Position numbers and translations under genes: made by a program. The notes below the pieces were generated by a model. The model was not told where the DNA came from, did not search any database, and saw only the letters and a list, made by a program, of their open reading frames with translations. A DNA stretch of 64,000 bases. It comes from an uncultured Roseicyclus sp. (GTDB lineage: Bacteria; Pseudomonadota; Alphaproteobacteria; Rhodobacterales; Rhodobacteraceae). The DNA is taken from assembly GCA_947489665.1 (NCBI GenBank), contig CANLEH010000001.1, forward strand, positions 840,501 to 904,500, in the 5' to 3' direction. Numbering within the stretch: the stretch's first letter is position 1; the number at the start of each line of letters is the position of its first letter. This document shows positions 9,910 through 21,473 of this stretch, piece by piece.

Positions 9910-10944
9910 TCACTGCTCCATCGCGGCGTCCCAAGCCTCCAGAAAGCTTTCACGGTTCAGGCGGTCGAGGTACACCATCAGGGCCGGTCCCAAACGGATC
10001 GGCCCGAAGGTTGAGGCGGCAACTTCGCCACGCGCCTGCAAAGGCGGCAGGACCGGCGCAGGCCCGTTGCCCATCCCCTCGCTCAAAAGCGCATCCAGCA
10101 TCAGACCCGCAGCGCCAACCCGCTCCGCTGTGGCGGGGATCAGCGCGGTGCGCAGCATGACATTCGCAAAATCCTCCAACGGCAGGATCGCAAGCCCCTC
10201 ATCCAAGCCCAATCGCCCCTCGGCATAAGAGCCAAGCACGTTGTACGCCAACGCCAATTCGCCAGAGGCGACATCATCGATCATCTGCGACGAGCAACAA
10301 TAAAGCCGCGCGTCCAGCCGCCCCATCACCTCCGTCAGGCGCCAATAGGCATCGGTGGAACGCGCCTCCTGCGTGGCAAACAGATAGCCAAGGCCACTGG
10401 CGCGCAGATCATAGGTGCCAACCCCACCGGCAAACCGGTCGGGGTGATCGCGCAGCAGCGTGACCAGATCGGCGCGCGTGCGGGGCAGGGCAAGCCCCTC
10501 AAACCGCTCCGCATTGATCACGATGACGGCAGGTTCTGCCGTGAACGCGAACAGCTGGTCATTCCATCGCGCCCAATCGGGCAAAGCCTGCGTCACCGCG
10601 CTGGAATAGCTCTGCGCAAAGCCATCATTGGCCAACGCGAATTGCAGGTCCATGGCTGAGGACAACGCCAGATCAAACACCGCCCCGCCCCGGATCGCGC
10701 GGTGCAACTCGGCGGATGAGACGGCCACATAATCAATGCCAAGGTCCGGGTTTGCGCTTTGGAACCGCAAAAGGAAGGGCTCGAACACATCCAGATCAGC
10801 GGTTGAGATCACGCGCAGCATGTCCGCGCCTGTGCCGGGATAGGTGCGGCGATCCTCAATCTCGAAATCCTGCGCCCCCACCGCCGACGCGGCGAGGAGG
10901 GACGCCAACAGCGGCCCGAGGAGGGGCGCGAAAAACCGCCTCAT
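9910..10944 (-). CDS. Periplasmic solute-binding protein (Fe3+/spermidine-type), coupled to TctE
   Basis: The 344-residue protein starts MRRFFAPLL with a signal peptide and probable cleavage after SAVGA. The mature part looks like a class II ABC binding protein (MLRVISTADLDVFEPFLLRF, AELHRAIRGGAVFDLALSSAMD, TAEPAVIVINAERF). The start is set by a 4-base ATGA overlap with the tctE stop. There is no permease or ATPase gene beside it. Its place as the last gene of a tctD-tctE operon suggests it is an accessory sensor that presents a ligand to the kinase rather than a transport component. An unusual CCSS stretch occurs mid-protein. Confidence 0.75.
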   Translation of the reverse strand: MRRFFAPLLGPLLASLLAASAVGAQDFEIEDRRTYPGTGADMLRVISTADLDVFEPFLLRFQSANPDLGIDYVAVSSAELHRAIRGGAVFDLALSSAMDLQFALANDGFAQSYSSAVTQALPDWARWNDQLFAFTAEPAVIVINAERFEGLALPRTRADLVTLLRDHPDRFAGGVGTYDLRASGLGYLFATQEARSTDAYWRLTEVMGRLDARLYCCSSQMIDDVASGELALAYNVLGSYAEGRLGLDEGLAILPLEDFANVMLRTALIPATAERVGAAGLMLDALLSEGMGNGPAPVLPPLQARGEVAASTFGPIRLGPALMVYLDRLNRESFLEAWDAAMEQ

Positions 10945-12317
10945 GCGGCGGGCAAGATCAGCGACACACATGCACCCGCTCCCTCCTCATTGCTGGTCAG
11001 GTCGAGGCGTCCGCCATGGGCGCGCAGCACTTCGTCGGCGATGGTCAGCCCAAGGCCGGACCCAACCACACCCTCCACCTGATCGCCCCGCCGGAACCGT
11101 TCGGTCAATTGCGTGGCCGATGCTTGCCCAAAGCCCGGGCCCTGATCGCGCACCATCACTTGCGCTTCGCCGCCGCCATTGCGGACAGACAGGGTCACGA
11201 CCGTCTCAGCCGGTGAGTATTTGATGGCATTATCCAACACATTGCGCAGCGCGTTCTGGATCAGGATCTCATCCCCCTCCGCATGGGCCGGGGCCATATC
11301 CAGTGCAATATCGATATCCTTCATCTGCGCCGTTGGCCGCAGCGCTTCGGCCACATCCCCCACCAGCGCAGGCAGGTCGAGCCGCTCACGGGTCAGATCA
11401 TCCGCACGGAACGAGACCATGGCATGGTCCAGCAATTGCGAGGCCGAGCGGGAGCTTTCGTCGACTGCCCGGATCACCCGGCGCAGCGTCTGTTTCTGGC
11501 TCTCTTCCTCCACCGAATGCAGGGCAATCTCCGCCTGCGCGCGCACGACCGCCAAAGGGGTGCGCACCCGATGCGCGGCCTCGGCGATGAAATCTTCTGA
11601 CCGGCGCAGCGATCCGCCAAGGCGTTCCATCAACCGGTTCAAGGCGCGGACCAGCGGCATCAATTCCGGCGGCCCCTGCCGTCTGAGCGGGCGCAAATCC
11701 GACGGCCCTCGCGTCGCCAGATGCTGCGCCATCGTGTTCAGCGGGCGGAGCGAGGCGCGCACCGCAAACGCCGCGATCCCCACCGCCAGCACAAACACCA
11801 TGCCCGACAGGACAGCCGCCTGCCGCGACAGTCCCGCCGCAATTGTCTGCACCCCGTCGCGTGTCTGCGCCAGCGTGACCGTGACAGGCACCGCCGCCCC
11901 GTCGCGCTGGATGATCCGTTGCAGGCTGACCGCCCGTACCGTCACGTCGCGGTAGGGCAGGGTCGCAAAGCGCGCCTCGCCTGATGTCGCTTCCGGCCCC
12001 TCCAGATCACCATATCCCGTCAGCACCTCGTCGCCCACCGCCACACGGTAGAACACCCGGTCCTCGCTCAGCGCGCCCAACATCGAGAACGCCGAATAGG
12101 GCAGCTCCAGCCGGATCTCGCCCCCTTCGGAGCGGAGCGTTTCCGCAATCGATGTGGCCGAGGCCGCGAGGATATTGTCCTGCGTCCGCCCCGCCGCCTC
12201 ACGGGCAAACGACGTCACCATGTACCAGCTGACCAGCGCCAGGATCGCAACCATTGCCGCCAGAAACAGCGTCAGCCGCCGGGCGATCGACCAGCGTTCC
12301 GAGACTCCGCCGCTCAT
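10941..12317 (-). CDS. tctE: Sensor histidine kinase, TctE-like
   Basis: The 458-residue membrane kinase has TM1 at about 14-36, a periplasmic TctE N-terminal-like domain (AETLRSEGGEIRLELPYSAF), a second TM (AAVLSGMVFVLAVGIAAFAV), HAMP, the H-box FIAEAAHRVRTPLA, and a HATPase domain with the N box (NALRNVLDNAIKYSP) and G boxes (DQGPGFG, GSGLGLTIA). It overlaps tctD upstream and the binding-protein gene downstream by 4 bases each. TctE homologues control tricarboxylate transporters, and tctCBA lies about 3 kb away on the other strand. The start at 12317 follows the overlap. Confidence 0.87.
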   Translation of the reverse strand: MSGGVSERWSIARRLTLFLAAMVAILALVSWYMVTSFAREAAGRTQDNILAASATSIAETLRSEGGEIRLELPYSAFSMLGALSEDRVFYRVAVGDEVLTGYGDLEGPEATSGEARFATLPYRDVTVRAVSLQRIIQRDGAAVPVTVTLAQTRDGVQTIAAGLSRQAAVLSGMVFVLAVGIAAFAVRASLRPLNTMAQHLATRGPSDLRPLRRQGPPELMPLVRALNRLMERLGGSLRRSEDFIAEAAHRVRTPLAVVRAQAEIALHSVEEESQKQTLRRVIRAVDESSRSASQLLDHAMVSFRADDLTRERLDLPALVGDVAEALRPTAQMKDIDIALDMAPAHAEGDEILIQNALRNVLDNAIKYSPAETVVTLSVRNGGGEAQVMVRDQGPGFGQASATQLTERFRRGDQVEGVVGSGLGLTIADEVLRAHGGRLDLTSNEEGAGACVSLILPAA

Positions 12318-12973
12318 GTATCCATCCGGTAACCAAGTCCACGCACCGTCTCGATCCGCACGCCAACCCCGTCCAGCTTCTTGCGCAACCGGCCCACGTA
12401 AACCTCGATGGCATTTTCCGTCACATCCGCCTCCAGGCTGAAGAGGCGGTCCAGCAATTGCCCCTTGGACAGGATCTGCCCCTGCGCGCGGGCGAATACC
12501 TCCAACAGGCGCAATTCTCGGTTGCGCAGGTCCAGCACCTGGCCGCCATGCCGCAACGTGCCGGCCATGGGGTCGAATACCGCTTCGCCCAAGGTAATCT
12601 CGTTCTTCGCGGCCCCGCCGCGACGGCGCAGAACGGCCCGACACCGCGCCTCCAGCTCACTGAAATCAAAGGGCTTCGTGATGTAGTCGTCAGCACCTTG
12701 GTCCAGTGCGCCCACCCGGTCGCTGATCTGGCTGCGTGCGGTCAGCACAATCACCGGCGTCTCCAGATGATCGCGATGGTGGCTCAGGAATTCGCGCCCA
12801 TCCCCATCGGGCAGCATCACGTCCAGCAGGATCAGGTCGTAATCGGCCACGGCCAGACAATCCTCCGCCGCGCCAAGCGTGCCGGCATGGTCCACGGCAT
12901 GGCCATCCAGCCCCAGCCGCTGCACCACCGCCTCGGCCAGTTCCGCATTGTCTTCGACCAATAGAAACCGCAT
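12314..12973 (-). CDS. tctD: OmpR/PhoB-family response regulator, TctD-like
   Basis: The 219-residue regulator has a receiver domain (MRFLLVEDNAELAEA, phospho-acceptor Asp51 in LILLDVMLP, Lys in ITKPFDF) and a C-terminal winged helix (ARAQGQILSKGQLLDRLF, VTENAIEVYVGRLRKKL). It is partner of the overlapping TctE kinase and by family an activator of tctCBA. The start at 12973 has a GAGGG ribosome-binding site. Candidate target direct repeats with 11-base spacing occur upstream of tctC at 15130-15150. Confidence 0.9.
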   Translation of the reverse strand: MRFLLVEDNAELAEAVVQRLGLDGHAVDHAGTLGAAEDCLAVADYDLILLDVMLPDGDGREFLSHHRDHLETPVIVLTARSQISDRVGALDQGADDYITKPFDFSELEARCRAVLRRRGGAAKNEITLGEAVFDPMAGTLRHGGQVLDLRNRELRLLEVFARAQGQILSKGQLLDRLFSLEADVTENAIEVYVGRLRKKLDGVGVRIETVRGLGYRMDT

Positions 12974-13033
12974 CCGGCCCTCCCTCACGCGCGAGAGTGC
13001 CGTTGCCATTCATCCGACGCAACTGTCCAGATG

Positions 13034-13642
13034 TCAGACCAGCCCGGCCATGGCCGCAAAGGGATCGTGGTCCGGGTCATCGTTCCAGATATATTCGCAA
13101 CCCTCGGCCATCTCATCGGCCGCTGCGCGCCCGAACAAATCCGCCGCGGCCGCCAGCGCCATGTCCATGCCCGCCGATACACCGGATGAGGTGAAGAATT
13201 TCCCATCCTGCACCCAGCGGGCCTGTTTCACCCACTCCACATTGGGGGCCAGATGCACCGTGTCGTTGAAGTCGAGCTTGTTTGTCGTCGCGCGCTTGCC
13301 GTCCAACACACCCGCCATGCCAAGCACAATGGTGCCCGTGCAAACCGCCATCACGCGCTCCGCCTTGGCCGAGGTTTCTGCAATCCACCCCAGAAAATCC
13401 GCGTCCTTCGCCGCGTCCAGGGCCGAGTCACCACCCGGCACAAAGAGAAGCTCATAATCGCTGCTCTCGGCCAGCGTCCGGTCCGGCACGATCCGCTGCC
13501 CATGGCGGCTTGGCACCGGATCAAGCGTCATCGCAACAGTCACAACCTCAATCTCGTCCCGGAACCCGCCGAGCATCTCGATCGGCCCGAAATAGTCGAG
13601 GGTCTGGAACCCCGGAAACACAAGCGCTGCCATTCTGCGCAT
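13034..13642 (-). CDS. DJ-1/PfpI family protein
   Basis: The 202-residue protein has the DJ-1/PfpI fold: FPGFQTLDYFGPIEML at the N-terminus, VPGGDSAL, and the nucleophile elbow AVCTGTIVLGMAG with Cys101. Asp16 and Glu22 are placed as in isonitrile hydratase-like members. It lacks the AraC DNA-binding extension of GATase1-type regulators. It lies between the GAF kinase gene and tctD on the same strand, with gaps of 37 and 60 bases. A role in the tricarboxylate locus is only positional; an isonitrile hydratase or glyoxalase-like activity is possible. Confidence 0.8.
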   Translation of the reverse strand: MRRMAALVFPGFQTLDYFGPIEMLGGFRDEIEVVTVAMTLDPVPSRHGQRIVPDRTLAESSDYELLFVPGGDSALDAAKDADFLGWIAETSAKAERVMAVCTGTIVLGMAGVLDGKRATTNKLDFNDTVHLAPNVEWVKQARWVQDGKFFTSSGVSAGMDMALAAAADLFGRAAADEMAEGCEYIWNDDPDHDPFAAMAGLV

Positions 13643-13679
13643 ATCAGGCCCCTTTTTTGGATGAATGCCCTCGCCCGGA

Positions 13680-14972
13680 TCAACCGGCCGACCGCGCCAA
13701 TTGGCCCTGCGATCCGTCAGACCGCAGCGGCAGGCGCAGCGAAAAGATCGCGCCCTTGCCGGGGCCGTCGCTGGCCGCCGTCACGTCGCCGCCATGGGCC
13801 CGCGCGATCTGCCGCACATTGCTCAGTCCAAGGCCCGTGGCACTTTCACCACCGGTCGGCTTGGCCGACAGGATCTGAAACGCCCCGAACGCGTAGCTCA
13901 GATCGCTCTGCGTCATGCCCTGTCCCTGGTCCTGCACATGGACAGTGACCGCCCCATGGCCGACCTCGACGCGAGCTGTGATCTCGGTGGCGGGCGGCGA
14001 ATATTTCACCGCATTGCCGATCAGGTTGTCGATGGCCTCCAGGCACAGCGTTTCATCCAGCAGCGCCATGACAGGGCCATCCGCCTCCAGCCGTATCGCG
14101 ATGTCCTTGCGCGCTGCATCCTCAGCGTTGTTGCTGACCGCCTGACGCACCAGCGAGGTTGCGTCGGTCTCACGCGGGCGGATCGCAATCCGCGCGCTCT
14201 CGCTCCGGCACCGGGCCAGCGTGGCATCAATGATCCCTGAAAGCCGGTCAGCATTCGCCATGATCTTCTCGAACTCCACTTCGGCTTTTTCGGCGTCAAA
14301 CCGGCCGTTGCCAAGCCGCGCCTGCATCAACTCGACCTTTGCGACAATCGCGGCCAACGGGTTGCGAATGTCATGCGCCACCATGCCCATCACCGAGGTC
14401 TTGAACTGATTGGCTTCGTGCAGGGCCTGATTGCGCAATTCCATCGACTCGTTGAGCGATTGCAGACGGTCAATCAACTGTTCACGCTCGGCGATCAGCG
14501 TCTTGTGCCGCATCTCGGCCTCTATCCGTGCGCCAAAGATCTTTACGATGTCCGTGGCCATCTGCGGCATGACAATCGGCGATTCCGAGAAGACGGCAAA
14601 GTTGCCGACAACCCGATTTTCATGGTCGCGAATGGGGACGCCCACATAGCCTTCCCAGCCGCTTTCGCGCGGGAATTGTTGGGCCAAAGCCCGCGGAACC
14701 GTGAACGTCTCGCCGCGGTAGACACAATGGCAGGGCGTGCCTTGAAGGTTGTAGGCTATGCCCGCCTTCGGCATGCCATCCTTCAGCGCATAGGTTGCTT
14801 CTGCACGGGTGGCGGGGTTGCCATTCCCGACGGTCACCAGAACCATCCGGGCATCCATGGCACGGCGCAGGGCAAAGACGACACGTTCCAGAAACGCCGT
14901 CCCGATCTCCCCGCCAACTTCGTTGGCAAGCGCCGAAAGCGGGGCCGCGCTCAGTGCCTCAACGTCGCTCAA
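13680..14972 (-). CDS. GAF-domain sensor histidine kinase (probable TTG start)
   Basis: The roughly 430-residue kinase has an N-terminal GAF domain (about 25-155, with QGTPCHCVYRGE and GYVGVPIRDHENRVVGNFAV), a coiled coil near 155-190, an H-box with His at about 200 (MVAHDIRNPLAAI), and a HATPase domain (NLIGNAVKYSP, DQGQGMT, GLGLSNVRQIA). No transmembrane segment, so it is cytosolic. There is no suitable ATG. GGAGGA lies six bases before a TTG at 14972; a GTG at 14978 is the alternative. It heads the minus-strand operon and is divergent from tctC. No cognate regulator adjoins except tctD. Confidence 0.82.
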   Translation of the reverse strand: MSDVEALSAAPLSALANEVGGEIGTAFLERVVFALRRAMDARMVLVTVGNGNPATRAEATYALKDGMPKAGIAYNLQGTPCHCVYRGETFTVPRALAQQFPRESGWEGYVGVPIRDHENRVVGNFAVFSESPIVMPQMATDIVKIFGARIEAEMRHKTLIAEREQLIDRLQSLNESMELRNQALHEANQFKTSVMGMVAHDIRNPLAAIVAKVELMQARLGNGRFDAEKAEVEFEKIMANADRLSGIIDATLARCRSESARIAIRPRETDATSLVRQAVSNNAEDAARKDIAIRLEADGPVMALLDETLCLEAIDNLIGNAVKYSPPATEITARVEVGHGAVTVHVQDQGQGMTQSDLSYAFGAFQILSAKPTGGESATGLGLSNVRQIARAHGGDVTAASDGPGKGAIFSLRLPLRSDGSQGQLARSAG

Positions 14973-15123
14973 GACCACTCCTCCATTTGGGGCACCGGAC
15001 TTGGAAAAGCTACGCCATTCGATCCTTTGAAGTCCAGCGTCACCGCCCGGCGTCCGTGCACCGGCACACACATGCCTGCGCCTTTCCCGATCCGTCCTGT
15101 AAGCTAGAGCGCCGGGTTCACCT

Positions 15124-15208: not shown

Positions 15209-16186
15209 ATGAAATTCACACGTCGCGTCATGATGACGGCGGCCGCCGCTATGGTGGCATTTTCCGGTGCAGCGCAAGCTGACGGGCACCAGGTGCTTGA
15301 AGAGCTGCACTTTCTGATCCCGGGCGGCGCTGGCGGCGGCTGGGATGGCACCGCACGCGGCACCGGTGAGGCGCTGACAGGCGCTGGCATCGTTGGCACC
15401 GCGTCCTACGAGAACATGTCCGGTGGCGGCGGCGGTGTGGCCATCGCCCACCTGATCGAGAATGCCGACAGCATGGGCAACACGATGATGGTGAACTCCA
15501 CCCCCATCGTCATCCGTTCGCTGACGGGTGTGTTCCCGCAAAGCTTCCGTGACCTGACGCTCGTCGCCGGCACCATCGGTGACTACGCCGCCCTCGTCGT
15601 TGGCGCAGACAGCGAAATCCAGGACATGGCAGGCCTTGTGGCGGCCTATGAAGCGGATGCGGGCGCCTTCGCCATCGGCGGCGGCTCCGTGCCCGGCGGC
15701 ATGGACCACCTTGTCGCTGCCATGGCCATGCAGGCCGCAGATCAGGACCCGACCGGGTTCAGCTATGTCGCCTATGATGCAGGCGGGGCCGCAATGGCAG
15801 CCCTTCTCTCGGGTGAGATCCAAGCGCTTTCCACCGGCTTCTCGGAAGCCGTGGCACTGGCTCAGCAGGGCGAAGTCCGCATCATCGGTGTGACCGCAGC
15901 GGATCGTGTCGACACCTTCGCCGACGCGCCTACGATGATGGAGCAGGGCCTCGACGTGGAATTCGTCAACTGGCGCGGCTTCTTCGCCGCACCCGGTCTG
16001 GATGATGCAACCGTCGAAAGCATGCGCGCCGCCATCGCTGCGATGTACGACACCCCCGAATGGGAAGAGGTTCGTGCCCGCAACGGTTGGGTGAACATCC
16101 ACAACCCCGGTGCCGATTTTGAGGCCTTCCTCGAAGCGCAGGAACAGCAGATCGGTGATCTGATGCGCACTCTAGGGTTCCTGTAA
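15209..16186 (+). CDS. tctC: Tripartite tricarboxylate transporter periplasmic binding protein
   Basis: The 325-residue Bug/TctC-family receptor begins with a signal peptide (MKFTRRVMMTAAAAMVAFSG, cleavage near AQA-DG). The mature domain has the family pattern LHFLIPGGAGGGWDGTARG, SVPGGMDHLVA, and ITTGFSEA-like LSTGFSEAVALAQQG near the second lobe. The ATG has a GGGAGG site 9 bases upstream. It captures a carboxylated substrate, citrate or similar, in the periplasm for TctAB. It is separated from tctB by 129 bases containing strong hairpins, as expected where the receptor must be made in excess. Confidence 0.93.
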   Translation: MKFTRRVMMTAAAAMVAFSGAAQADGHQVLEELHFLIPGGAGGGWDGTARGTGEALTGAGIVGTASYENMSGGGGGVAIAHLIENADSMGNTMMVNSTPIVIRSLTGVFPQSFRDLTLVAGTIGDYAALVVGADSEIQDMAGLVAAYEADAGAFAIGGGSVPGGMDHLVAAMAMQAADQDPTGFSYVAYDAGGAAMAALLSGEIQALSTGFSEAVALAQQGEVRIIGVTAADRVDTFADAPTMMEQGLDVEFVNWRGFFAAPGLDDATVESMRAAIAAMYDTPEWEEVRARNGWVNIHNPGADFEAFLEAQEQQIGDLMRTLGFL

Positions 16187-16219
16187 ATCCATTATGGCGC
16201 GCGGGGCTCACTCGCGCGC

Positions 16220-16282
16220 CACGACCCGGGCTGAAGCCCGGCCTACATCACGTCGTGGACCGGGCCTTGGCCCGGGACCACC
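16220..16282. repeat. Tandem hairpins between tctC and tctB
   Basis: Two stems are visible: CCGGGCTGAAGCCCGG at 16226-16241, and a longer one at 16255-16281 built on ACCGGGCC-TT-GGCCCGG. CACGAC (16220-16225) can also pair with GTCGTG (16252-16257), so the two may fold together. No T-tract follows. It may stabilise the tctC message 3' end or be a REP-like dispersed palindrome. Confidence 0.6.
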
Positions 16283-16315
16283 AAAACACTTCAAACACCG
16301 GAAGGGAGGCCCCCA

Positions 16316-16810
16316 ATGGCGCTCGATCGCTGGATCGCGCTGGTCTTCGTGGCACTCTGCGTGCTCTACGGCTATGCCGCGTTCTTCACCATGGACCACC
16401 TGTTGCCGCCCTTCATGCAGCGCAACCCGGTCTGGCCCTCCACCTTCCCCAAAATCCTGTCGATCTGCGGCGTGATCGTCGGCCTCGTCGTGCTGCTCGG
16501 CATTGAAAAGCAGAGCACCGAGAAAGAGCCTTCGGCCACCGACATCAACTACCGCAATCTCGGCCAGTATCACATCGGTCAGGCGCTCGCCCTTCTGGGG
16601 CTGATGGTCGCCTACGCGCTATGCTTGCGTCCGCTTGGCTTCATCGCCTCAACGATCCTGTTTCTCAGCCTTGGCGCTACGGTTCTGGGGGAGCGTAAGT
16701 TCCACTACCTCATCCCCATTGCGGCCCTGGCGACCTTCTTCGTGTGGTATCTGGTGCAAGAGGTGCTCGGCATCTTCCTGCGGCCCTGGCCCACATTTCT
16801 TGTGAATTGA
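16316..16810 (+). CDS. tctB: Tripartite tricarboxylate transporter small membrane subunit
   Basis: The 164-residue TctB-family protein has four hydrophobic segments (about 7-27, 42-62, 85-110, 122-152) and the usual length. PSTFPKILSICGVIVG and LRPLGFIASTILFL fit the family. It is the small membrane partner of TctA. A GGAAGGAGG site lies just upstream of the ATG. tctA follows 12 bases downstream. Confidence 0.9.
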   Translation: MALDRWIALVFVALCVLYGYAAFFTMDHLLPPFMQRNPVWPSTFPKILSICGVIVGLVVLLGIEKQSTEKEPSATDINYRNLGQYHIGQALALLGLMVAYALCLRPLGFIASTILFLSLGATVLGERKFHYLIPIAALATFFVWYLVQEVLGIFLRPWPTFLVN

Positions 16811-16822
16811 GGGAGGTTCGTC

Positions 16823-18349
16823 ATGCTTGAAGGTCTCATGATCGGCCTGTCCACGGCCATCAACCCGTTCAACCTGATGATGGTCGTCTTCGGATGCATC
16901 ATCGGCACATTCATCGGCATGCTGCCCGGCCTCGGGCCGATGTCCATCATCGCCATCATGATCCCCGTGGCGATCACGCTTGGCGATCCCACCGCCGCGC
17001 TGATCCTGCTGGCGGGCGTCTATTACGGGGCCATCTTCGGTGGCTCCACCTCCTCGATCCTGCTGAACGCGCCGGGGGTCGCGGGCACGGTGGCCACCAG
17101 CTTCGATGGCTATCCGATGGCGCAAAAGGGCATGGCGGGCAAAGCGCTCACCATCGCGGCCGTCTCCTCCTTCGCGGGCGGCACAATCGGTGCGATCCTC
17201 CTGATGGTCTTCGCCCCGATGCTCTCGTCGGTGGCGCTCCTCTTCCACTCCGCCGAATACTTCGCGCTGATGGTCGTCGGTCTCTCGGCCATTGCGGCCT
17301 TCGCGGGCACGGGTCAGGTCGGCAAGGCGCTGATGATGACGCTTCTGGGCCTGATCATGGCGACCGTCGGCGAAGGTGCGCAATTCAACATGCCCCGCTT
17401 CACCATGGGTCTGATGGACCTGCAATCGGGCTTCTCCTTCATCACACTCGCCATGGCGATGTTCGCCCTGCCAGAAGCGATTTTCCTCGTGATGAACCCG
17501 GCCCGCTCGGCCCAAGGCTCTGACGGCGCGTCGGGCGGCAAGATCACCAACCTGCGCTTCAGCCGCGAGGAAGGGCGCAAGATGATCCCCGTCATTGGCC
17601 GGCAATCGGTGCAAGGCTTCTTCATCGGCGTCCTGCCGGGGGCAGGGGCCACCATCGCCTCGTTCCTCGGCTATGCAGTCGAACGCAACATCGCCCCCAA
17701 GGGCGAGCAGGAGGAGTTCGGCAAAGGCTCCATCAAGGGCCTCGCAGCGCCCGAAACCGCCAACAACGCCGCCTGCACCGGCTCGTTCGTGCCGCTCCTG
17801 ACGTTGGGCATTCCCGGCTCAGGCACCACCGCAATCCTTCTGGGCGCCCTCATTGCGCTTAACGTCACACCCGGCCCCCGCCTGATGACGGATGAGCCGC
17901 AGGTGTTCTGGGCCGTCATCATCTCGATGTATATCGGCAACCTGGTTCTCCTGATCCTGAACCTGCCGCTGATCCCCTATATCGCCAAGATCCTCGCAAT
18001 CCCGCGCAACTACCTGATCCCGTTCATTTTGTTCTTCACCCTGATGGGGGCCTATATCGGGCAGAACAATTCGACAGAGCTTTTGATCCTCGTGGGCTTT
18101 GGCGTGGTGGCCACGATCCTACGCTTTGCGGACTATCCGCTGGCACCGCTTCTGATCGGCTTCATCCTCGGCACGATGCTTGAGGATAACCTGTCGCGCT
18201 CCATGCAGCTGGCGCAGGGCTTTGGGTTCATCTTCGACCGCCCCATGGCACTGGGTTTGCTGATCCTGGCTGCGGTGCTGGTGCTTCTGCCAAGCTACCG
18301 CGCGCGGCGGGCGGCCAAGCGGGCCGAAGGCGTGGCCGATGGGGATTGA
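16823..18349 (+). CDS. tctA: Tripartite tricarboxylate transporter large permease subunit
   Basis: The 508-residue protein is a full-length TctA permease with about eleven to twelve membrane segments. Family motifs seen are GTFIGMLPGLGPM near residue 30, YYGAIFGGSTSSILLNAPG, GFFIGVLPGAGATIASFLGYAVER and TLGIPGSGTTAILLGAL. It drives cation-coupled uptake of the TctC ligand. GGGAGG precedes the ATG. A GC-rich hairpin region separates it from the CoA-transferase gene. Confidence 0.95.
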   Translation: MLEGLMIGLSTAINPFNLMMVVFGCIIGTFIGMLPGLGPMSIIAIMIPVAITLGDPTAALILLAGVYYGAIFGGSTSSILLNAPGVAGTVATSFDGYPMAQKGMAGKALTIAAVSSFAGGTIGAILLMVFAPMLSSVALLFHSAEYFALMVVGLSAIAAFAGTGQVGKALMMTLLGLIMATVGEGAQFNMPRFTMGLMDLQSGFSFITLAMAMFALPEAIFLVMNPARSAQGSDGASGGKITNLRFSREEGRKMIPVIGRQSVQGFFIGVLPGAGATIASFLGYAVERNIAPKGEQEEFGKGSIKGLAAPETANNAACTGSFVPLLTLGIPGSGTTAILLGALIALNVTPGPRLMTDEPQVFWAVIISMYIGNLVLLILNLPLIPYIAKILAIPRNYLIPFILFFTLMGAYIGQNNSTELLILVGFGVVATILRFADYPLAPLLIGFILGTMLEDNLSRSMQLAQGFGFIFDRPMALGLLILAAVLVLLPSYRARRAAKRAEGVADGD

Positions 18350-18414
18350 CGAAAGGTTGGCGACGGGCGCCAGCCCTTCATGAACATATCGCTCGTGTCC
18401 GGGCGAAGCGGCCC

Positions 18415-18470
18415 GCCCGGTGGGCACCACCGGGCAGCCCCCGACCGCCCCCCCGGGCGGGGGCTTCACC
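18415..18470 (+). terminator. GC-rich hairpins after tctA
   Basis: A perfect nine-base stem GCCCGGTGG/CCACCGGGC with a three-base loop lies at 18415-18435, followed by a second C/G-run stem near 18447-18464. There is no T-tract, so this is either a weak or Rho-assisted terminator, or an mRNA processing and stability element between the transporter and the enzyme genes. The rest of 18350-18509 holds no gene. Confidence 0.4.
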
Positions 18471-18509
18471 CCCACCCGCGGCCGGGGGCCGCCCTCACCA
18501 CGTTGTGCC

Positions 18510-19694
18510 ATGACCAGCCCTCTCGCCGATATCCGCGTCCTCGACCTCACCAATGTCCTGGCTGGCCCCTTTGCCTGCCACCAACTGGCCCATCTGGGGG
18601 CAGAGGTCATCAAGGTCGAAACCCCAGGTCGGGGCGATCTGGCCCGCAACCTCGGGGCTTCCCCCGACCTCAGCGCGCAGGGCATGGGCATCTCCTTCCT
18701 CGCCCAAAACGCGGGCAAGAAATCCATCACACTCAACCTCAAACATCCCTCGGGCAAAGAGGCCCTCAAACGCCTTGTGAAAACTGCTGATGTCCTTGTC
18801 GAAAACTTCCGCCCCGGTGTGATGGCCCGCCTCGACCTCAGCTACGACGCTCTGCGCGAAACCAACCCTGCTCTGATCTACTGCGCCATCTCCGGCTTTG
18901 GTCAGGACGGCCCCATGGCCGCGCAACCCGCCTACGATCAGATCATCCAAGGCGCATCCGGAGTCATGTCCATCACCGGCCACGACACGCCCACGCGCGT
19001 TGGCTATCCGCTGTCGGACACGATCGGCGGCCTCACCGCCGCCATGGCCATCACCGCCGCCCTAAACGCCAATCCGCGCGGCACTTTCATCGACGTCTCC
19101 ATGTTGGAGGCGACGCTCGCCACCATGGGCTGGGTCGTCTCAAACCACCTGATTGGCGGCGCAACACCCCAGGCCCACGGCAACGAAAACCCAACATCCG
19201 CCCCCTCTGGCACGTTCCAGGCGCTCGACGCGCCCCTCAACATCGCGGCCAACAAGGATGAACAGTGGCAGGCGCTCGCGTCCCTCCTCGGTCGGTCCGA
19301 CCTCTTGGCAGATGCCCGCTTTGCAACGCGCGAAGACCGCAAGGCCAACCGCCACGCCCTGCTGGCCGAACTGGAAACGGTGCTGACCAGCCAAACCGCC
19401 GCCCATTGGGTCGCGGCCTTGAACGCAAAAGGCATCCCTGCTGGCCCCGTCCTGACTGTCCCGCAAATCCTGTCCCACCCGCAAATCGCTGATAGGGGTC
19501 TTGTCGCCAGTTTTGACCCGCCGAGTCTCGACCAAAGCATCGACGTCGTAACCACCGGCTTCCGCATGGACGACACGCGGCCGTCCGTGGCAACCCCGCC
19601 GCCCGCCCTCGGCGAACACACACACGACATCCTGCGCGATCTGGGCTACGCAGAGGCGGACATCCAAAGGATGACCGAGGAGGGCGCGATATGA
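18510..19694 (+). CDS. CaiB/BaiF (class III) CoA-transferase
   Basis: The 394-residue protein is a full-length family III CoA-transferase: PLADIRVLDLTNVLAGPFA at the start, GAEVIKVETPGRGDLAR, and SGFGQDGPMAAQPAYDQIIQG, with catalytic Asp at about 143. Family members move CoA between dicarboxylic or hydroxy acids through a glutamyl/aspartyl-CoA intermediate. The gene lies between tctCBA and a citryl-CoA-lyase-type protein, with a 4-base overlap to the latter, so citrate (or a citrate analogue) is a reasonable acceptor. The start at 18510 lacks a strong ribosome-binding site; upstream in-frame starts would fall inside the hairpin region. Confidence 0.85.
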   Translation: MTSPLADIRVLDLTNVLAGPFACHQLAHLGAEVIKVETPGRGDLARNLGASPDLSAQGMGISFLAQNAGKKSITLNLKHPSGKEALKRLVKTADVLVENFRPGVMARLDLSYDALRETNPALIYCAISGFGQDGPMAAQPAYDQIIQGASGVMSITGHDTPTRVGYPLSDTIGGLTAAMAITAALNANPRGTFIDVSMLEATLATMGWVVSNHLIGGATPQAHGNENPTSAPSGTFQALDAPLNIAANKDEQWQALASLLGRSDLLADARFATREDRKANRHALLAELETVLTSQTAAHWVAALNAKGIPAGPVLTVPQILSHPQIADRGLVASFDPPSLDQSIDVVTTGFRMDDTRPSVATPPPALGEHTHDILRDLGYAEADIQRMTEEGAI

Positions 19695-20458
19695 GCGATG
19701 TGTCAGATTGGTGGCGCACCAAGATCATCGACATGGAACCGGGCCGGATCGACCTGCGCGGCACGCCCGTTCAAGACCATATCGGCAATCGCAGCTTTGC
19801 CGAAATGATCTGGCTGATGGTCATGGGCGAAGAAATCAAGGGCCCGCGCGCGGCGCTCTTCGAGGCGGCGCTTGTCGCTGCCGTCGACCACGGCCCGCAA
19901 GCCCCCTCCATCGCCGCCGCCCGCATGGCCACCACCTGCGGTGTCGGCCTCAACAACGCCATGGCCACTGGCCTCAACATGCTGGGTGACGTGCATGGCG
20001 GGGCAGGGGAACAGGCCGTGACGCTCTACCATCATGTCGAGCGGGCAGGCCCGGAAAACATCGCCTCCACCCTCGGCACATGGCGCGCGCAGAACGGGCC
20101 GTACCTTCCGGGCTTTGGGCATCGCTTTCACAAACCGACCGACCCGCGCGCTCCGCGCCTGCTGCAATTGGTCGATGAATGCGCTGAGACAGGCTCCGTC
20201 CCCGGGGCCTACGCCATGATCGGCCGCGCGATCGAGGCGCATCTGGCAGAGGAAAAGGGCCGACCCGTGCCGATGAACATCGACGGGGCCACGGCGGTGA
20301 TTTTTGCGGAACTGGGCTGCCCCGCCCCACTCGCGCGCGGCTTCTTCTGCCTGTCGCGCTCGGTTGGAATCCTTGCCCATGCCTGGGAGCAGTCTGAGCA
20401 GGGCGGGCGCAACAAGGGCCCGACCCCGCCGGGCTATCGCTGGACATTTGACGGGTAA
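19691..20458 (+). CDS. Short citrate-synthase-fold protein, probable citryl-CoA lyase
   Basis: The 255-residue protein corresponds to the catalytic core of citrate synthase or the C-terminal module of ATP-citrate lyase. All three catalytic residues can be placed: His102 (GDVHGGAGE), His144 (GFGHRFHKPTDPRA) and Asp198 (MNIDGATAV). The length equals stand-alone citryl-CoA lyases such as that of Hydrogenobacter, and is far below the roughly 430 residues of true citrate synthase. The start overlaps the CoA-transferase stop (ATGA), so coupled expression is likely. Predicted reaction: citryl-CoA (or a related hydroxyacyl-CoA) to acetyl-CoA and oxaloacetate. Lyase of a citrate analogue is the main alternative. 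Confidence 0.8.
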   Translation: MSDVSDWWRTKIIDMEPGRIDLRGTPVQDHIGNRSFAEMIWLMVMGEEIKGPRAALFEAALVAAVDHGPQAPSIAAARMATTCGVGLNNAMATGLNMLGDVHGGAGEQAVTLYHHVERAGPENIASTLGTWRAQNGPYLPGFGHRFHKPTDPRAPRLLQLVDECAETGSVPGAYAMIGRAIEAHLAEEKGRPVPMNIDGATAVIFAELGCPAPLARGFFCLSRSVGILAHAWEQSEQGGRNKGPTPPGYRWTFDG

Positions 20459-20520: not shown

Positions 20521-20591
20521 ATGTGCGGGCGCGCTAGACACCACCGCCGTGCCTGCTACCTTCCGCGCAACTTTTATTGGCGGAGGCTCAC

Positions 20592-21473
20592 ATGGCGAAA
20601 CTGGCATTCCTTGGACTTGGCGTTATGGGCTACCCAATGGCCGCGCATCTTTTGGGCGCGGGGCATTCCGTGACGGTCTACAACCGCACGGCTGAGAAGG
20701 CCGCCAAATGGGCGTCCGAGATCGGCGGATCGCACGCCGCCACCCCGCGCGAGGCTGCGGAGGGCGCCGATTTCGTGATGGCCTGCGTCGGCAATGACGA
20801 TGATTTGCGGAGCGTCGTTCTGGGCGATGACGGCGCACTTGCTGGCATGAAGGAGGGCGCGATCTTTGTCGATCACACCACCGTCTCGGCGATCGTCACC
20901 AAGGAACTCGCTGCATTTGCGTCCGATCAAGGCGTGGGCTGGGTCGACGCACCCGTTTCAGGCGGGCAGGCAGGCGCCGAAAACGGCCAACTCGCCATCA
21001 TGTGCGGCGGCGACGCCGCGCATTTTGAGGCAGCAAAGCCCGTCATCGCCGCCTATTCCAAGGCAAGCGTGCATTTCGGGCCTGTCGGATCCGGCCAGTT
21101 GGTCAAGATGATCAACCAGGTCTGCATCGCGGGCGCCATCCAATCCGTGTCGGAAGGGCTCTACATGGCGATGAAAGCCGGCCTCGACGCCAAGCAGGTG
21201 GCCGACCTGGTGTCACAGGGCGCCGGCGGGTCCTGGCAGCTGGCCAACCGCGCGGGCACCATGGTCGACAATGAATTCAACCACGGCTTTGCGGTGGATT
21301 GGATGCGCAAGGACCTCGGCATTGCTTTGGCGCAGGGCAAGGATATGGGCCTGTCGCTGCCCGTGACCGCCATGGTCGACCAGTTTTACGCCGAAGTGCA
21401 GCAGCTCGGCGGCGGGCGGTGGGACACCTCCAGCCTGATCCAACGCTTCCGCAAAATGAATGACGAGATCTGA
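20592..21473 (+). CDS. NAD(P)-dependent beta-hydroxyacid dehydrogenase (3-hydroxyisobutyrate dehydrogenase family)
   Basis: The 293-residue protein has the family's N-terminal Rossmann motif LGLGVMGYPMAAHLL, the substrate motif DAPVSGGQAGAENG (about 119-132), and the catalytic Lys172 with Asn175 in LVKMINQ. It oxidises or reduces a beta-hydroxyacid such as 3-hydroxyisobutyrate, tartronate semialdehyde or 4-hydroxybutyrate; the sequence does not decide which. GGCGGAGG precedes the ATG at 20592. The 3' end overlaps the next gene by 14 bases if that gene uses its ATG. Confidence 0.87.
   Translation: MAKLAFLGLGVMGYPMAAHLLGAGHSVTVYNRTAEKAAKWASEIGGSHAATPREAAEGADFVMACVGNDDDLRSVVLGDDGALAGMKEGAIFVDHTTVSAIVTKELAAFASDQGVGWVDAPVSGGQAGAENGQLAIMCGGDAAHFEAAKPVIAAYSKASVHFGPVGSGQLVKMINQVCIAGAIQSVSEGLYMAMKAGLDAKQVADLVSQGAGGSWQLANRAGTMVDNEFNHGFAVDWMRKDLGIALAQGKDMGLSLPVTAMVDQFYAEVQQLGGGRWDTSSLIQRFRKMNDEI

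Follow-up and report, generated by a model that had tools for sequence, protein, structure and literature searches.

A predicted citrate uptake and cleavage operon combining a CoA-transferase with a citryl-CoA-lyase-like protein in Rhodobacterales

Imported citrate is generally assumed to be metabolised in the tricarboxylic acid (TCA) cycle. What, then, would a coenzyme A (CoA) transferase and a citryl-CoA-lyase-like protein do directly behind a tricarboxylate importer? This question is raised by a locus in a 64,000-nucleotide stretch of DNA (hereafter the window) from an uncultured Roseicyclus sp. (contig CANLEH010000001.1, positions 840,501 to 904,500), whose host genome of 4.13 Mb is 99.95% complete and whose closest named relatives, judged by this locus, are Rhodobacterales of the Roseicyclus type. 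We read the genes tctC, tctB, tctA, the transferase gene and the lyase-like gene as a citrate uptake and cleavage module, a reading to which we give a probability of about 0.6 and in which substrate, CoA donor, direction and regulation are inferred.

A conserved operon and its two enzymes

The original prediction described tctCBA followed by a class III CoA-transferase gene and a lyase gene on the same strand, the last two overlapping by four bases. The family matches and the coordinates agree with this arrangement, with all five genes at the expected positions on the forward strand (Table 1), and the overlap is seen in the sequence as ATGA. Scanning the window lyase against genome contigs gave 134 relatives, the best 80 of which were retained and underlie all 80-locus counts. 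The transferase gene adjoins the lyase gene in all 80 loci, with a gap of -4 to +8 bp; between tctA and the transferase gene the median distance is 4 bp and the largest 102 bp (77 loci). Order and strand are kept in every one of the 75 loci that have a window-type tctA and all five genes. Since order, strand and short gaps are conserved across related loci, the arrangement is a real operon and not a product of chance. Some of the absent genes are due to contig ends, for instance in locus L053, and the tctA of L090 is not of the window type (41% identical and located downstream).

The last gene encodes, as had been predicted, a 255-residue protein with the citrate synthase fold that keeps His102, His144 and Asp198; these three residues and the citrate-binding ones are invariant in all 80 close relatives. 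The window protein also retains His67, Arg153, Arg223 and Arg240, and in 26 more distant lyases (two of them broken genes) the catalytic and citrate-binding residues are invariant barring one or two gapped rows. Arg153, Arg223 and probably Arg240 would presumably hold the oxaloacetate-like product, roles that we carry over from citrate synthase. The protein covers only positions 140–350 of the 357 positions of the PF00285 profile and is not a full-length citrate synthase with both domains, which the genome encodes elsewhere, but a stand-alone protein with the fold of a citryl-CoA lyase module. It passes the curated cut-off (261 bits) of the NCBI citryl-CoA lyase model NF004864, a family name that is in itself no proof of a tested function, and its top solved structure, both by sequence and by fold, is 6HXP from Hydrogenobacter thermophilus.

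The transferase keeps an aspartate (Asp143, counted from the ATG), which we take to be catalytic and whose position was set by alignment, in 80 of 80 loci. The closest NCBIfam model is succinate--glutarate CoA-transferase, with 284 bits against a cut-off of 750, and because the nearest models are of the succinate--glutarate, oxalate and mesaconate types, none of them near its cut-off, our guess for the CoA donor would be succinyl-CoA.

In the proposed mechanism, the TctDE-like proteins would sense external tricarboxylate and switch on tctCBA, and TctCBA, by its likely kinship with a verified transporter, would import citrate. The class III transferase would then transfer CoA to citrate through Asp143, the donor being an acyl-CoA already present in the cell (probably succinyl-CoA or acetyl-CoA), and the lyase would cleave citryl-CoA to acetyl-CoA and oxaloacetate in a retro-Claisen reaction. 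The conversion of citrate and succinyl-CoA to succinate, acetyl-CoA and oxaloacetate should be near equilibrium. Beside the TCA cycle, such a module would act as a shortcut that yields acetyl-CoA and oxaloacetate in a single step, with no need for the iron-sulphur enzyme aconitase or an ATP-using ligase and with no loss of CO2. No ligase gene is present in the operon, and a search of the host genome for CitF (PF04223) gave no match.

In the window, the gap between tctA and the transferase gene is 160 bp, counted to the ATG at 18510 as the presumed start codon, and exceeds the gap in all 77 loci. Only 4 of 200 shuffled sequences fold as well as this spacer, which may loosen the coupling between the two halves of the operon. 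The tctDE-like regulator genes (10941–13009) are divergent and located upstream of tctC. TctD is the best NCBIfam match of the response regulator with 191 bits, below the cut-off of 337, and the start of the TctE-like gene is not fixed, a longer version being present in the list of open reading frames. The matches to histidine kinases in 60 loci were mostly cross-hits to TctE and were left unused. Between tctD and tctC of the window, a histidine kinase gene and a DJ-1-like gene are located on the reverse strand (13034–15071); the label DJ-1-like is a reading of the sequence without a family search.

Three neighbouring genes were considered as parts of the module and rejected. The dehydrogenase gene downstream (20577–21473) is located beside the lyase gene on the same strand only in the two nearest of the 80 loci (L033 and L034); a 67% match lies once on the opposite strand (L089), and five other matches (28–32%) are located elsewhere. 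The endonuclease-like gene after the dehydrogenase gene and the DJ-1-like gene were found in one of the 80 loci each.

Table 1. Features of the window locus, with family matches and presence in the 80 related loci
Feature	Coordinates	Strand	Evidence
tctC	15209..16186	+	PF03401, 78.9 bits; present in 76/80 loci
tctB, small membrane subunit	16316..16810	+	PF07331, 77.6 bits; 75/80 loci
tctA, large membrane subunit	16823..18349	+	PF01970, 477.3 bits; 77/80 loci
Foldable G+C-rich spacer, tctA to transferase gene	18350..18509	+	Fold z-score -2.35; unusually long
Class III (CaiB/Frc) CoA-transferase, 394 aa	ATG 18510 to stop 19694	+	PF02515, 399.4 bits
Citryl-CoA-lyase-like protein, 255 aa	19691..20458	+	NF004864, 408 bits; PF00285, 112.6 bits
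TctD-like response regulator	12314..13009	-	Top NCBIfam model TctD; 74/80 loci
TctE-like sensor kinase	10941..12338	-	2CSK_N and HATPase domains; 74/80 loci

Coupling of transferase and lyase across genomes

The co-occurrence across Rhodobacterales for which the original prediction had proposed a search is seen in the five-gene order described above and also at the level of whole genomes. In a family sample of 149 genomes, one per genus, a lyase (over the curated cut-off) was found in 32, a transferase (E value 1e-110 or better) in 29 and both in 27. The two genes are linked in 20 of these 27 genomes and located on different contigs in seven, and the 1.5-kb flanks of the seven unlinked lyase genes contain no window-type transferase. 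When the 20 linked genomes are excluded, seven of the nine transferase genomes fall among the 12 lyase genomes of the remaining 129 (3e-7); the corresponding value for all 149 genomes is 2e-22, and both values rest on the assumption that genomes are independent, which does not hold. Four of the nine transferase genes concerned (seven unlinked and two in genomes without a lyase) adjoin genes of a tripartite tricarboxylate transporter (TTT), one of the four (L245) being next to a window-type tctCBA.

Lyases over the cut-off were also detected in 18 of 289 genomes of a class sample and in 22 of 398 genomes of a phylum sample, both of which include some family members. From outside the family 26 loci were fetched, 24 with a lyase over the cut-off and two with a broken gene. 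A transferase is located within 300 bp in 21 of them and within 9 kb in 23, TTT genes within 6 kb in nine, TRAP genes (DctM) in three, two of which have no transferase within 9 kb, and a TctD-like gene within 8.5 kb in four. The pair is therefore the constant element, since the transferase is near the lyase in most of these loci while the transporter types differ; the importer, where recognised, varies.

Evidence for citrate and competing explanations

By family matches TctA, TctB and TctC form a complete TTT, and the genome has five TctA genes, that of the window included. The solved-structure relatives of TctC gave no clue to the ligand. Citrate uptake is, according to parts of a review, the commonest role among the few characterised TTT systems, with TctD or BctDE as regulators (PMC5812351). 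Growth on citrate fell by 99.1% and citrate drawdown by 99.3% in a tctABC mutant of Ruegeria pomeroyi DSS-3, and the orthologues are described in the same report, again in part of its text, as well conserved in roseobacters (PMC10130141). A tctA at least 79% identical to that of the window is present in 114 of 394 family genomes, and of 54 genomes from the genus to which a Ruegeria locus belongs, 39 have one that is 82–87% identical; the next TctA paralogue is at most 40% identical in the six genomes examined. Because the window-type tctA is so widespread in the family and the next paralogue so distant, the verified R. pomeroyi importer and the window tctCBA are likely orthologous.

Several results weigh against citrate import and cleavage. 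The orthology just described is likely and not certain. In the host genome, citrate can already enter the TCA cycle through two aconitase-family genes, one of which may encode a leuC-type enzyme, and a full citrate synthase. None of the seven NCBIfam models that match the window transferase passes its equivalog or subfamily cut-off, leaving the acid substrates unassigned by family. Five of the 32 lyase genomes have no transferase and two of the 29 transferase genomes no lyase, and no TTT or TRAP genes were found within 6 kb in 14 of the 26 non-family loci, some of which reach contig ends; one of the 14 (L185) has a sugar-transporter-type gene of the major facilitator superfamily upstream in the same gene run. 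Among the matches listed, 26 genomes with a window-type tctA also belong to the 149-genome sample, 16 with a lyase over the cut-off and ten with none. In these ten genomes tctCBA is accompanied by neither transferase nor lyase, and a TctE-like match lies beside it in nine; one of the ten stretches ends 0.35 kb after tctA, and genome-level searches found neither gene there. The pair is therefore an addition to the importer, and the transported compound can be used without it. In addition, the lactonase, the arginase with aldehyde dehydrogenase and the QuiC-like operon found beside other lyases (see below) suggest that some members handle other acids.

The tree also belongs to these points. It omitted two broken lyase genes (L192 and L193) and 70 of the 80 close relatives, and places 6HXP across a branch with 99/100 support from the window clade, together with a second clade of short proteins, the branch of 6HXP itself being flagged as long. 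A grouping of the short protein with non-lyase members, which the original prediction had named as evidence against its function, is not seen, yet the window clade appears to form its own lineage and does not nest with the Hydrogenobacter enzyme.

It is possible, but in our view unlikely, that the same chemistry acts on a citrate analogue barred from the TCA cycle, such as 2-methylcitrate, homocitrate or hydroxycitrate, with CoA transfer and retro-Claisen cleavage yielding an acyl-CoA and a 2-oxo acid. An activating step would be of use despite aconitase if the substrate were an analogue, and an SMP-30 lactonase, as expected for lactone-forming hydroxy acids, is encoded in one related operon; however, TctD- and TctE-like genes accompany 74 of 80 loci, and the invariant Arg153, Arg223 and probably Arg240, in the roles assumed for them from citrate synthase, argue against citramalate. 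The literature, as far as the parts concerned go, contributes to both sides, since TTT receptors bind varied acids (PMC5812351), whereas the verified roseobacter tctABC imports citrate (PMC10130141). We consider it very improbable that the transferase–lyase pair is simply parked beside a citrate transporter and serves another substrate made in the cell. The ten genomes with the transporter alone, the 14 loci outside the family without a recognised TTT or TRAP importer and the aldehyde-oxidising enzymes in two lyase contexts would fit such a pair, but the tight operon with its conserved order, the repeated pairing with other TTT systems and the four of nine unlinked transferase genes that adjoin TTT genes speak against it. 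Least credible to us is that the lyase runs in reverse or on another ester, making citryl-CoA or citrate from acetyl-CoA and oxaloacetate while the transferase recovers CoA for citrate export or regulation. The reaction is chemically reversible and the fold is common to citrate synthases, but the transporter of the operon is an importer rather than an exporter, a full citrate synthase is already encoded in the genome, and the window protein matches only the C-terminal part of that family.

Citrate import and cleavage is thus the best reading on hand. Of the function originally predicted, the operon, a lyase fold nearest to citryl-CoA lyase, an intact active site, the lack of a ligase in the operon and of CitF in the genome, and the genome-wide coupling of the pair hold as observations; citrate, the donor and the cleavage of citryl-CoA are what we infer from them.

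Other lyase contexts and known systems

The 1.5-kb flanks of 30 family lyase loci, out of 34 matches over the cut-off, contain a CaiB-type neighbour in 17 cases (only 31% identical in L029), a QuiC-like gene instead in ten and neither in three. The same lyase clade is therefore found in operons without the transferase and does not specialise in citrate import in all of its contexts. With wider flanks (L232, L233, L235, L236 and L237), this second operon was seen to contain genes for a GntR regulator, TRAP proteins, a QuiC-like protein with AP_endonuc_2 and HPPD-like domains, and the lyase, together with an AP_endonuc_2 TIM barrel, a CoA-acylating aldehyde dehydrogenase, a thiamine pyrophosphate (TPP) enzyme of the acetolactate synthase family and, in some loci, Gfo/Idh/MocA dehydrogenases; its content varies. 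Family searches were made on the members of L232, L233 and L237, and the other loci were assigned by similarity. DctM is present in four of the five loci (the exception being L233), and the acylating dehydrogenase (416 bits with the SauS model, cut-off 600) and TPP genes occur in all five and also in L148, which has no QuiC-like match. All catalytic residues are kept in the 17 rows of second-operon lyases, which represent 12 distinct genes (five were fetched twice), ten beside QuiC-like genes plus L145 and L148 with TRAP genes. This retention would fit a lyase that takes citryl-CoA from any source; other acids are possible too.

The second operon appears to resemble inositol catabolism at the superfamily level only. 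Its genes suggest an inositol-style pathway that leads from a ring acid to citryl-CoA, with quinate as a candidate: carbon 1 of quinate is a tertiary alcohol that bears a carboxyl group and two CH2 arms and so has the core of citrate. In marine alphaproteobacteria, citryl-CoA may be a general node of aerobic catabolism, with one lyase clade fed by CoA transfer onto imported citrate and, in the second operon, by CoA-acylating oxidation of an aldehyde after inositol-like breakdown of a ring acid; we regard this as a doubtful speculation. No published description of the second operon was found in the open-licence literature.

Transferase and lyase also occur in other gene runs. In L142 (3186–9822) they are found with an NMT1-like (TAXI-type) receptor, a DctM-domain protein, an SMP-30 lactonase and an IclR regulator, and in L149 (4664–9789) they are preceded by genes for an arginase-family protein and an aldehyde dehydrogenase; L234 (4658–9807) has, by size and order alone, similar genes in the same order as L149. 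L154 (5786–15360) combines in one run a 51%-identical lyase, a more distant CaiB-type transferase, an ADP-forming-type acyl-CoA synthetase and a 3-hydroxyacyl-CoA dehydrogenase.

The second clade of short citrate-synthase-fold proteins (34 loci, 26–36% identical) has lost His102 in 32, Asp198 in 30 and Arg145 in all 34 cases, and Arg240 in most. A transferase is located within 300 bp in 13 of the 34 loci, and neither TTT genes within 6 kb nor TctD were found in any. The idea that the same chemistry is carried out by any short citrate-synthase-fold protein encoded next to a CaiB-type gene was therefore rejected, and since the catalytic His and Asp are mostly lost, this clade probably has an activity other than that of citryl-CoA lyase. 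In L174 (4732–13107), and similarly in L173, L175, L176, L177 and L179, a second-clade protein is encoded with a CaiB-type transferase and TRAP genes, and L174 additionally has intradiol dioxygenase, IclR and amidohydrolase genes.

No part of the window operon falls outside known families, and an NCBI model already gives the lyase the name citryl-CoA lyase. CitDEF of citrate fermenters activates citrate by acyl thioester exchange and then cleaves it to oxaloacetate, as proposed here; CitE, however, belongs to a fold other than citrate synthase, CitF is absent from the host genome, and no acyl carrier protein gene is among the five genes of the operon. In ATP-citrate lyase, a citryl-CoA lyase module is fused to an ATP-using synthetase, which the window operon does not contain. 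Itaconate degradation and the routes with succinyl-CoA:mesaconate or malate transferases follow the same logic of CoA transfer to an acid and cleavage of a hydroxyacyl-CoA, but their lyases belong to other protein families. The lyase of H. thermophilus (6HXP) is likewise a stand-alone citrate-synthase-fold enzyme acting after citryl-CoA formation, which there depends on an ATP-using synthetase. This synthetase makes citryl-CoA for CO2 fixation, as stated in part of the report (PMC9768450), whereas the window has a CoA-transferase in an import operon and a separate lyase lineage. Salmonella TctCBA/TctD and Bordetella BctCBA/BctDE are also tripartite citrate importers with regulators; the term CoA does not occur in the main text of the TTT review, which thus describes no transferase or lyase for these systems (PMC5812351).

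Titles and abstract openings of the matching literature contain no class III CoA-transferase paired with a citrate-synthase-fold lyase, and for the exchange of a ligase for a transferase in an import operon, its conservation and its coupling, no published description was found in the open-licence literature. It seems that nobody has tested these enzymes. The gene set is conserved in many marine bacteria. If the reading as a citrate module is true, the transferase–lyase shortcut would give acetyl-CoA and oxaloacetate directly and would change models of carbon flow from dissolved citrate. Furthermore, the finding makes the function of the large, automatically named "citryl-CoA lyase" family testable.

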